From positions 330,124 through 394,123 of the forward strand of contig JAKLII010000003.1 in assembly GCA_022709695.1 (NCBI GenBank): a stretch of 64,000 nt of DNA, read 5' to 3'. This DNA is from Bacteroidota bacterium. Lineage in GTDB: Bacteria > Bacteroidota > Bacteroidia > Bacteroidales > SKPS01. Below the pieces are notes generated by a model that ran no database searches, had not been told where the DNA came from, and saw nothing but the letters and a program-made list of their open reading frames with translations. The stretch's first letter is position 1, and every line of letters begins with the position of its first letter. Of the stretch, positions 55,488 to 58,742 are shown one piece after another. The position numbers and the translations under genes are program-made.

Positions 55488-55545
55488 TGCTGTGAACAAA
55501 GAGACCGGAAATCGGTTTAGCAGTTTGAAACAAAAACAAAAATTT

Positions 55546-55932
55546 ATGAAGAAAGCTATTTCAGTGTTGATGATCGGTCTGATGGTGATAGCGGTTAGCA
55601 TATTTGCAGTTAACGCATCAAATGCAAATCCCGATAAGGACCCAAAGGCCAAGGAATCAAAGGAAAAAACATGTTGCAAGGATGACAAATCGGCTACCAA
55701 AGATGGTAAGTCGTGCTGCGCTGACAACAAGGACGGAAAATCGGGCTGTGCCGACAAGAAGGATGGCAAGTCATGCTGCTCCGAAAAGAAAGAAGGCGCC
55801 TCAGGATGTTCAGGCAAGAGCGAAAGCAAATCATGTGGCAGCAAATCTGAGACCGGCAGTGCCTCAGCAGCTCCTGCAGATCAGAGTGCATCAGCCGGCA
55901 AGACCAATTGCGCAAGAACCAAGTGCCAATAA
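55546..55932 (+). CDS. Secreted Cys/Lys-rich repeat protein
   Basis: A 128-residue protein from the ATG at 55546, which gives a signal peptide (MKKAISVLMIGLMVIAVSIF, cleavage near NAS-NA); the frame from 55492 adds a hydrophilic stretch before it. The mature part is low-complexity, built of degenerate ~11-residue repeats such as KDGKSCCADN, KDGKSGCADK and KDGKSCCSEK. Cys-Cys pairs recur among Lys, Ser and Gly. No family is recognised. Such spacing could bind soft metals or form disulfides in the periplasm. It sits behind a candidate response-regulator site, divergent from an RprXY-like system, and has its own terminator. Confidence 0.75.
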   Translation: MKKAISVLMIGLMVIAVSIFAVNASNANPDKDPKAKESKEKTCCKDDKSATKDGKSCCADNKDGKSGCADKKDGKSCCSEKKEGASGCSGKSESKSCGSKSETGSASAAPADQSASAGKTNCARTKCQ

Positions 55933-55963
55933 GAGATAATGATTCATTTTCATCGTGTGTGGG

Positions 55964-55989
55964 ACCCGCAGGGATGCGGGTTTTTTTTT
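55964..55989 (+). terminator. Intrinsic terminator after the Cys-rich protein gene
   Basis: Perfect 7-bp stem ACCCGCA/TGCGGGT with loop GGGA, followed by a T-run to 55989. Confidence 0.9.
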
Positions 55990-56020: not shown

Positions 56021-56050
56021 TATAAAAACAGAAGCGGGAAGCGCTTCTGT
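56021..56050 (-). terminator. Minus-strand intrinsic terminator of the candidate RNA
   Basis: Read on the minus strand, ACAGAAGC and GCTTCTGT form a perfect 8-bp stem with loop GCTTCCC, followed by TTTTTATA. Confidence 0.75.
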
Positions 56051-56497
56051 CTGAAGGGCTTCCCGCCGAACCTCCCTCTGGCCGTAGCCATTGGGTGCCA
56101 TCAGGTTATTGTTATTCCGGCTGATCCTTCCCTGGCGCGAACGCCCTGGTTCCGGATCCGGCGCTGCTTTCTCCCTTTCGGGTTCCGGCAGATCGCCCGG
56201 CTGTTGCCAGCCCCGGTGGCCCTTCTCCCGTAGGAGGGTGCTACCGGCTTGTTTAGCAGAACCGGCGGCAGTGCCGCCATCCTCTAAACCTTTTCCCCGG
56301 ATCAGACTCCTTAACGGCTATACCGAAAAGGTGGGTCTTTCGTTGGTGCCGCCTGCGCGCCACCTGAACAGGCTTGGGTAAGCTCCGCAACATTTGCTCT
56401 GCCTTCCGGCTTTTTCTCCTGCTGCTTCGGGCCTTGCTCCGGATTGCTCCTTCGCGCAGGCCCCCGTACCCGGGGTTCGCCTTTTATCGCTCACCTG
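56021..56497 (-). ncRNA. Candidate large structured non-coding RNA, family unknown
   Basis: About 480 nt on the minus strand between a strong promoter (56504-56534) and an intrinsic terminator (56021-56050). It has many short perfect stems capped by stable tetraloops: CCCCG-GGTA-CGGGG (near 56462-56474), CTCC-TACG-GGAG, GGCTG-GCAA-CAGCC, CCC-GAAA-GGG and GGCG-TTCG-CGCC, plus GGCGGC-ACT-GCCGCC inside a GTTTAG/CTAAAC stem. A 9-bp long-range helix pairs 56453-56461 with 56351-56359. It lacks the RNase P core sequence GAGGAAAGUCC, tmRNA termini and a 4.5S-like core. GC-rich, unlike the gaps around it. Function unknown. Confidence 0.65.
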
Positions 56498-56503
56498 ACG
56501 AAA

Positions 56504-56534
56504 CAAAGATACACCCCGGTGGAGGGTTTGTCAA
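56504..56534 (-). promoter_or_regulatory. Promoter of the candidate RNA
   Basis: On the minus strand TTGACA (56529-56534) is followed after 17 nt by TATCTTTG (56504-56511), a full -7 match. It is one of the best promoter matches in the window and points away from relA into sequence with no gene. Confidence 0.7.
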
Positions 56535-56588
56535 GGGTTTTTTCAGCCAATTAACCCACAAAGATTCAACATAAGTTATGAACAATTG

Positions 56589-58742
56589 TTAATAACTCTG
56601 CACCACCTGCCGGGTCACTTTTTCAACGCCGTTGATGCGCCGGATTTTCTTTATGATCCACCCTATCTGCGGGTTATCTCTGGCTATAAGCTGGATGGTC
56701 CCTTTGAAACGCCCCTCAACGGCTTCGAATGTTGCAGAGCGCGTCATCACTTTCAGATCCCCCGAAAGGACATCGGTAATGTCGCGGATGATACCGAGCC
56801 GGTCGCGCCCCGTCACGGCGAGAGCCACCTGGATCCCCCCACCTGCCGGCTCATGGGTCCAGCGGCTCGGGATGATCCGGTAGGGGTAACGGGTTTTCAT
56901 CTCCGCGGCATTGGGGCAATGGATCCGGTGGATACGGATTCCTTTGCCCACCGTCACAAACCCGAAAATTTCATCTCCAAAAACCGGGTTGCAGCATTTT
57001 GCCAACTGGTAATCGCGGGTGGGCATTTCATCGTTGATCATGAGCACCTCTTCCCCGGTGGTGAGCCAGCTGCGTCCTTCGAGCGGCGGGAGGATCTCCT
57101 TTCTTACCGGGTCTTCCTGTGAGGGTTCCTCTTTTGCCAGTGCATCCCTTAGCCTCGCGGTGGTGATTTTTTCCTCAGCGATCATCCGGTAAAATTCCCC
57201 GGCATCCCTGATCCTGAAGTGTTGCATCAGCCAGTTAACCTTTTCATCCAGCGACCCTGCCTTCCACTGCCTGAGTTTTCGCTCCAGCAGTTCCTTCCCC
57301 TGCATGATCCCGGCATCCTTGCGCTCCTGGAGGGCTTTGCGGATCCGGTTCCTGGCTTTGGACGAAATCACAATTTTAAGCCAGTCTTCCGACACATTGG
57401 GGGTTTTAGCCGTGAGCACTTCCACCTTATCACCGTTTGCCAGGGTATGTCTGATGGGCATCATCTTCCCGTTCACCACTGCCCCCTTGCACCTGAGGCC
57501 TACATCGCTGTGCACCTCGAAGGCAAAATCCAGGATGGTGGCGCCCTTCTTCAGCCTGACAAGGTCGCCACCGGGGGTTACGGTAAATATTTCACCGGAA
57601 ACCGGGTTGTGCATTCCGCGGGCATCTGCTTCAACAGGTGCCTCAAGGAGTTTTCTGGCCCTGGCAAGCCATTCGCCGGCATCTTTTTTGGCCCCCTCCT
57701 TATAGCGCCAGTGGGCTGCCGGCCCCTCTTCTGCCTGCCGGTCCATCCGCAGGGTGCGGATCTGCACCTCGACCCACCGGCTGCCGGGCCCTTTTACGGT
57801 GGTGTGGAGCGATTCGTACCCACTGGGGCGGGGTACCGAAATCCAGTCGCGAAGCCTCTCGGGATCAGGTGGATACAGATCGGTTACCAATGAGTAGATC
57901 TCCCAGCACCGCCGTTTTTCGTCTCCCTCAGGAGCAGGGTCAATGATCCGGATGGCAAACACATCAAAAACCTCCTCCAGTCCCACCTGCTGTGTGCGCA
58001 TCTTTCTCCAGATGGACGCAACCGATTTGATTCTGTACCGGATTTCAGGCGCAAATCCCTTTGCCCTGAGCCGTTCATTCAGGGGAGCAATGAAACGTTC
58101 GATGTACCTGTGCCGCTCCTGTTCAGTATCTGCGAGATCACGGGAGATTTTGCCGTAGATGTCCGGATGCTTCTGCAGCATCACAAAGTCTTCCATTTCC
58201 GATTTAATCCGGTACAGCCCTAACCGGTGTGTAAGGGGAAGGTACAGGTGCTCCAGATCGGAGAGGAGTGCCTCCCTGAGGGAATCAGGGATGGTATCAA
58301 AATGACGGAGCTGCCAGATCCTGTGCCCCAGCACAGCCAGCAACGCCTGCATCTCTTCTGCCAGCAGGAGCAGCATTTTCATGAAATTTTCGCTCTGAAG
58401 ATTGGCCCGGCGGGTGTTCAGTGCTTCCACAGCCCTGATCCCTCTTAGCAGCGTAAGTATATGCGGATCTGTTACTTTCAGATCTTTCTCCCCTGCACCA
58501 GGCATCAGGAAGAGCATAAGGGCTGCAGCTCCGTGCGGGCTCACACCGGTTTCGATCAATGCGGTAAGGGCCATCTGATGGATCCGTGCAGCCTCATCTC
58601 CCGATCCGGAGGCCTGCAGCTTGTCTGTTACCCTTTCGGGGAAATGATGCAGCCATGGCTCCTCTTCCGGGAAAAGCCGGATCAGGTGCTCATATGCTCC
58701 GGGATCATCCATCCTGCTGTGCTTCCGAGGCCTTGGCCTCAT
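56589..58742 (-). CDS. RelA/SpoT-family (p)ppGpp synthetase, RelA-like
   Basis: A 717-residue stringent-response enzyme. The N-terminal region aligns with the HD hydrolase domain but has no HD pair (AAALMLFLMPGAG where hydrolases have LLHD), so hydrolysis is unlikely. The synthetase domain is intact: IKSVASIWRKM, DVFAIRIID, GYESLHTTVKG, EVQIRT and EEGPAAHWRYKEG. TGS (GEIFTVTPGGDLVRLKKGAT) and a C-terminal ACT domain (VTGRDRLGIIRDIT) follow. It should make (p)ppGpp on amino-acid starvation. It overlaps mazG upstream; an ATG at 58712 is an alternative start that would reduce the overlap from 38 to 8 bp. Confidence 0.9.
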   Translation of the reverse strand: MRPRPRKHSRMDDPGAYEHLIRLFPEEEPWLHHFPERVTDKLQASGSGDEAARIHQMALTALIETGVSPHGAAALMLFLMPGAGEKDLKVTDPHILTLLRGIRAVEALNTRRANLQSENFMKMLLLLAEEMQALLAVLGHRIWQLRHFDTIPDSLREALLSDLEHLYLPLTHRLGLYRIKSEMEDFVMLQKHPDIYGKISRDLADTEQERHRYIERFIAPLNERLRAKGFAPEIRYRIKSVASIWRKMRTQQVGLEEVFDVFAIRIIDPAPEGDEKRRCWEIYSLVTDLYPPDPERLRDWISVPRPSGYESLHTTVKGPGSRWVEVQIRTLRMDRQAEEGPAAHWRYKEGAKKDAGEWLARARKLLEAPVEADARGMHNPVSGEIFTVTPGGDLVRLKKGATILDFAFEVHSDVGLRCKGAVVNGKMMPIRHTLANGDKVEVLTAKTPNVSEDWLKIVISSKARNRIRKALQERKDAGIMQGKELLERKLRQWKAGSLDEKVNWLMQHFRIRDAGEFYRMIAEEKITTARLRDALAKEEPSQEDPVRKEILPPLEGRSWLTTGEEVLMINDEMPTRDYQLAKCCNPVFGDEIFGFVTVGKGIRIHRIHCPNAAEMKTRYPYRIIPSRWTHEPAGGGIQVALAVTGRDRLGIIRDITDVLSGDLKVMTRSATFEAVEGRFKGTIQLIARDNPQIGWIIKKIRRINGVEKVTRQVVQSY

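Follow-up and report, generated by a model that had tools for sequence, protein, structure and literature searches.

A predicted gene for a large structured RNA with a promoter and terminator of its own, apparently restricted to one genus of Bacteroidota

The window, a stretch of 64,000 nucleotides of contig JAKLII010000003.1 from a Bacteroidota bacterium of the order Bacteroidales (assembly GCA_022709695.1), carries on its minus strand, at positions 56024-56499, what is almost certainly a real structured RNA gene, and the RNA is apparently undescribed, without an Rfam family and restricted to one genus. The predicted gene is about 476 nt long, runs from a predicted start at G56499 to a U tract and is intergenic, as judged from a read of the minus strand between 55600 and 56900. 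It would stand alone as a transcription unit and give rise to a large, structured non-coding RNA. An earlier note, made from the sequence alone, had proposed that a structured RNA not yet described is encoded here between a promoter and a terminator of its own, and this core claim is supported by the lack of any Rfam match, by the absence of codon-type conservation and by the retention of the fold in a diverged homolog.

That note had described about 480 nt without a credible gene, in agreement with the coding analysis: the open reading frames are short and none is common to the homolog. The longest one, in frame +0 of the RNA itself, has 99 codons but is interrupted in the homolog by stop codons and indels (1, 2 and 14 nt), and a two-sequence frame comparison found no reading frame common to both RNAs. 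Codon-type conservation, the pattern that the note had set against an RNA gene, was looked for in the same pair and was absent. The RNA is GC-rich as claimed (59-63% GC vs. about 50% for the contig), although the gap that surrounds it is just moderately AT-rich.

When 198 relatives were searched by blastn, a single further copy was detected, and it lies in the one other member of the genus among the genomes searched. This homolog belongs to a congeneric Lentimicrobiaceae MAG (contig SKPS01000015.1, isolate CSSed162cmA_391); CSSed-named MAGs come from Cock Soda Lake sediment (PMC6704655), a site to which the homolog is linked by its name. The two RNAs are 70% identical, whereas the RSH (RelA/SpoT) genes that adjoin them are 59% identical at the nucleotide level and 39% at third codon positions. 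Thus, the RNA has been held by selection while silent RSH sites drifted far.

Selection acts on the RNA fold. Folded separately, the two RNAs gave structures with 84 exact pairs in common, compared to 33 ± 13 in a null in which the substituted letters were permuted among the substituted sites, and none of the 400 trials reached the observed value. With a tolerance of 3 columns, 125 of 144 pairs were common to both folds (null 48 ± 17, reached by 0/400). A helix-wise match of 119 pairs classified 87 as unchanged, 10 as changed on one side, 17 as changed on both sides but still paired and 5 as broken; as the helix offsets in this match of two sequences were set by hand, it is the permutation test of shared pairs that carries the weight. 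Excess compensation was not significant when one minimum free energy structure was projected through a sequence-only alignment (pairing retained in 10 of the 22 pairs with both letters changed, p 0.14-0.37), probably because MAFFT misaligned the rewritten hairpins, and the compensatory signal is visible only with hairpins matched as structures. It is highly improbable that the locus is not an RNA gene but a GC-rich spacer or a decayed coding sequence folding by chance. A GC-rich sequence always folds to some extent, and the 99 open codons of frame +0 could be read as a coding remnant, but the shared pairs stand above the null, 17 pairs show two-sided compensation, the loop classes have been kept, the sequence is more constrained than its neighbours and both promoter and terminator are conserved.

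The predicted fold has a minimum free energy of -219 kcal/mol and a z-score of -5.49 relative to dinucleotide shuffles (0/100 equally stable); the z-score of the homolog fold is -3.12. Its architecture is a nested multibranch one, in which P1 and P2 close the molecule and P3 bounds P4-P8, followed by P9-P13, P14 and the terminator. At least six stems with stable tetraloops had been reported before, and 12 hairpins were found, 7 of them capped by GNRA or UNCG loops, against a mean of 0.21 and a maximum of 2 in 150 dinucleotide shuffles. Long-range pairing is also present as reported, but in place of the single 9-bp helix there are two, P1 and P3. The closing helix P1 (7-8 bp; 56100-56499, minus strand as for all the elements that follow) pairs 56499-56493 with 56106-56100, and P3 (8 bp; 56295-56475) pairs 56475-56468 with 56302-56295, with one two-sided and one one-sided compensatory change and one mismatch in the homolog. 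Between them, P2 (56119-56481) pairs 56481-56479 with 56121-56119.

Within the 5' multibranch domain closed by P3, P4 (56429-56463) has a conserved GCAA loop and one two-sided compensatory change, P5 (56387-56425) has four such changes and a GGAA loop that is GCAA in the homolog, and P6 (56372-56383), which reads GCUU-ACCC-AAGC, is invariant. P7 (56345-56364) is mostly rewritten in the homolog, with four two-sided compensatory changes and one mismatch, and the hairpin is retained; P8 (56304-56338), with a CGG-UAUA-CCG apex, shows one two-sided and one one-sided change. The best conserved block of the RNA is P9-P11. Two two-sided G-C to C-G flips and a one-sided change were detected in P9 (56251-56289), one two-sided change and one mismatch in P10 (56213-56247), which has a UACG loop, and comparison of loop and helix in P11 (56199-56212) revealed a GCAA loop replaced by GUAA. 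Within P10, CUCCUACGGGAG (56225-56236) has the same 12 letters as the 338/341 primer-site hairpin of 16S rRNA, probably a convergent use of the UACG loop. P12 (56160-56197), with one two-sided and one one-sided change, carries a GAAA loop that is GCAA in the homolog, where the aligned region is longer by 14 nt, so that in P5, P11 and P12 alike the GNRA loop has been exchanged within its class. The outer GAUCC/GGAUC of P13 (56123-56158; UUCG loop) is invariant and its inner part has been replaced. An unpaired A-rich joining segment, GGAATAACAATA (56107-56118), lies between P2 and P1 and is conserved in the homolog, and P14 (56070-56098; UACG loop) shows one two-sided and one one-sided change. 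Pseudoknots were also considered, the sole candidate conserved in all five pairs involving the U-tract region and not being convincing, and CsrA-type GGA motifs are, by estimate, no more frequent than composition predicts.

The RNA is preceded by the minus-strand promoter that the earlier note had pointed out, in which TTGACA and TATCTTTG are separated by a 17-nt spacer (56534-56504). The -33 element TTGACA (56529-56534) is also present in the homolog, and the -7 element TATCTTTG (56504-56511), TACTTTTG in the homolog, is of the Bacteroidota TAnnTTTG type (consensus in PMC9723704). No other TTGACA-N16-19-TAnnTTTG site was found on the 434-kb contig, for which 0.5 would be expected by chance. 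Both boxes and their distance to GUCAGG are kept in the homolog, as is the sequence context of the start site; the spacer, counted there by hand as 18, differs in sequence between the two genomes. As the -7 box TAnnTTTG of flavobacterial sigma-A is located at -12 to -5 (PMC9723704), this published box-to-start rule predicts transcription to start at G56499, the first base of GUCAGG, which is the 5' strand of P1. The predicted start would then coincide with the first base of the closing helix. At the other end, the intrinsic terminator recognised in the same note (56024-56067), with a 14-bp stem and a U tract at 56028-56024, is present and conserved in the homolog, with one two-sided and one one-sided change.

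A 22-bp palindrome, GTTATTAACAATTGTTCATAAC (56575-56596), overlaps the RSH stop codon about 40 bp upstream of the promoter and is a candidate operator. It is found upstream of the RNA promoter in both genomes, although in the homolog the RSH stop is farther away, and no second copy with up to 3 mismatches was found in the genome. This unique and conserved palindrome suggests that the RNA may be controlled by a dedicated regulator. Its reading as an origin of replication, with DnaA-like TTATNAACA boxes, was not supported, as there is neither a box cluster nor a GC-skew switch on the contig.

The covariance search proposed earlier was run with all 4227 models of Rfam 15 on the whole window and no family reached its gathering threshold, so novelty was not refuted; even with E values up to 10, only short chance matches were obtained on the RNA and on its homolog. 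Sub-threshold matches such as those to OmrA-B, RyhB and BTnc231, among others, lay on the plus-strand terminator or were short chance matches. RNase P RNA and tmRNA, which the note had also set aside, were found elsewhere in the genome (RF00010 at G000:C3:104342-104725, 253.9 bits, and RF00023 at G000:C4:5613-6008, 131.5 bits), and ARAGORN detected no tmRNA in the window. The RNA resembles class A RNase P RNA and tmRNA in its length, its many stable tetraloops and its long-range closing helix, but the genome's own copies of these are on other contigs. 6S RNA consists of one rod-like structure about 180 nt long; like it, the RNA would be a stand-alone regulatory RNA with its own promoter, but it is multibranch and 476 nt long. 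No match to 6S RNA was obtained in the genome with a model that also misses the Bacteroides control.

A highly diverged RNase P RNA, tmRNA, group I/II intron, OLE, ROOL, GOLLD or HEARO RNA missed by Rfam is therefore considered quite unlikely. The size and multibranch architecture are alike and Rfam models can miss strongly diverged members, but RNase P RNA and tmRNA are accounted for elsewhere and neither of the two sequences has a convincing match up to an E value of 10. Against an intron stand the promoter and terminator of the RNA and its intergenic position, with no interrupted gene. The typed neighbours include no HNH/IscB-type gene.

The search for relatives was extended with R1, a covariance model that was built from the two sequences and spans the central 200 columns; a second model, of the 3' half, was dropped since P12 and P13 were misaligned by MAFFT. 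In overlapping samples of genomes from the order (393), the class (395), the phylum (395) and the nearest relatives (39), R1 detected just the two known copies. No credible homolog was seen in about 1,000 other Bacteroidota genomes, although a two-sequence model may miss distant relatives. Weak matches inside an M56/BlaR1-like gene of G105 (20.1 bits) and inside an FtsL-like gene of G908 were judged to be due to chance. A 22-base pattern found only the known homolog in the GTDB 220 genomes, from which the window's own genome records were possibly excluded, and a pattern search that allowed 3 mismatches across the order yielded an overwhelming number of chance matches. Phage, plasmid and viral collections gave no match either, by blastn for plasmids and phages and by exact-pattern scans for viral contigs. 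Hence the proposal of a conserved Bacteroidota RNA stands as far as conservation in a diverged homolog is concerned, but not for the phylum, the homologs found all belonging to one genus.

The RNA follows a co-oriented RSH gene (56589-58742, minus strand; Pfam RelA_SpoT, TGS and ACT_4), and the order histidine kinase, Cys-rich ORF, RNA, RSH, mazG and TlpA-like gene is common to both genomes. The typed neighbours are RSH, MazG, the histidine kinase and a response regulator, the Cys-rich ORF being untyped. A second RSH gene of the genome (G000:C20:175913-177829) is 38% identical to the one adjoining the RNA. The RNA might regulate the upstream mazG-RSH genes, in cis or as a 3'-UTR-linked element, being expressed from its own promoter and by read-through and tuning (p)ppGpp metabolism, for example through binding of the RSH protein or mRNA, but this is unlikely. 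In both genomes it immediately follows RSH and mazG in the same orientation, and no convincing terminator was seen between RSH and the RNA promoter; however, as the entire block is syntenic, this adjacency carries little information. In addition, R1 gave no convincing match beside RSH at 28 other RSH loci of the order, and the RNA has its own promoter, with a predicted start exactly at P1.

The next gene downstream (55492-55932, plus strand) is convergent in both genomes. It is a small Cys-rich ORF that looks secreted, contains repeated CC/K/D-rich units and has no Pfam family, and a similar ORF occupies the corresponding position in the homolog (L003 828-1202). The terminator of this ORF lies at 55961-55984 and the neighbouring CACACGATGAAAATGAATCATTAT, with a flanking sequence that is conserved in both genomes. 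A structured RNA that ends in an intrinsic terminator is reminiscent of transcriptional riboswitches, but there is no coding sequence past the terminator on which such an element could act, so that orientation excludes a role as riboswitch or leader for a gene downstream, which we regard as the least credible reading of all. The same lack of a co-oriented gene after the terminator points to an action in trans.

By behaviour, the nearest kind would be the large ornate RNAs OLE, ROOL and GOLLD. OLE is an ornate, stand-alone bacterial RNA of about 600 nt with conserved unpaired segments, from extremophiles (PMC9723947), and ROOL and GOLLD are large RNAs with extensive covariation-supported stems (PMC12286853); the functions of all three are themselves poorly understood (PMC12286853, PMC9723947). 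Elaborate secondary structure with comparative support, as in these RNAs, was found here from two sequences. The likeness to OLE includes the large size, ornate fold, stand-alone gene and conserved unpaired segments, and the name of the homolog's MAG points to soda-lake sediment (PMC6704655), but the RNA is about 476 nt long, belongs to Bacteroidota instead of Gram-positive bacteria, matches no Rfam family and has no oapA-like gene among its typed neighbours. As with ROOL and GOLLD, it is a large multibranch RNA without a protein product, but it differs from them in its length and in the lack of Rfam and of phage, plasmid or viral matches.

By this analogy, the reading that we favour, with modest confidence, is a stand-alone, trans-acting large RNA that serves as an RNP scaffold or forms a multimer, in the manner of OLE, ROOL and GOLLD but not homologous to them. 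The body of GNRA- and UNCG-capped arms could bind proteins as an RNP scaffold or self-assemble, and tertiary, protein or intermolecular contacts would probably be made by the conserved A-rich joining segments and the GNRA loops of P4, P5, P11 and P12. More tentatively, and with a rather low probability, the same analogy may extend to a new class of large RNA in one uncultured Bacteroidota lineage, either a protein-free multimer or the core of a dedicated RNP.

Since almost the same fold has been kept in the sister species despite 30% sequence divergence, the RNA matters to the cell. Few large structured RNAs are known from bacteria, and among them are several that proved to act as ribozymes, RNP cores or RNA cages. 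In the present case, the fold is clear in two species, the ends are defined and Rfam contains no relative, and the boundaries suit transcription, probing and cryo-EM. Its apparent one-genus range suggests that large RNAs of this ornate kind may be of recent origin or evolve quickly, so that phylum-wide searches miss them and, if it does represent a new class, ornate RNAs would have arisen independently in Bacteroidota.
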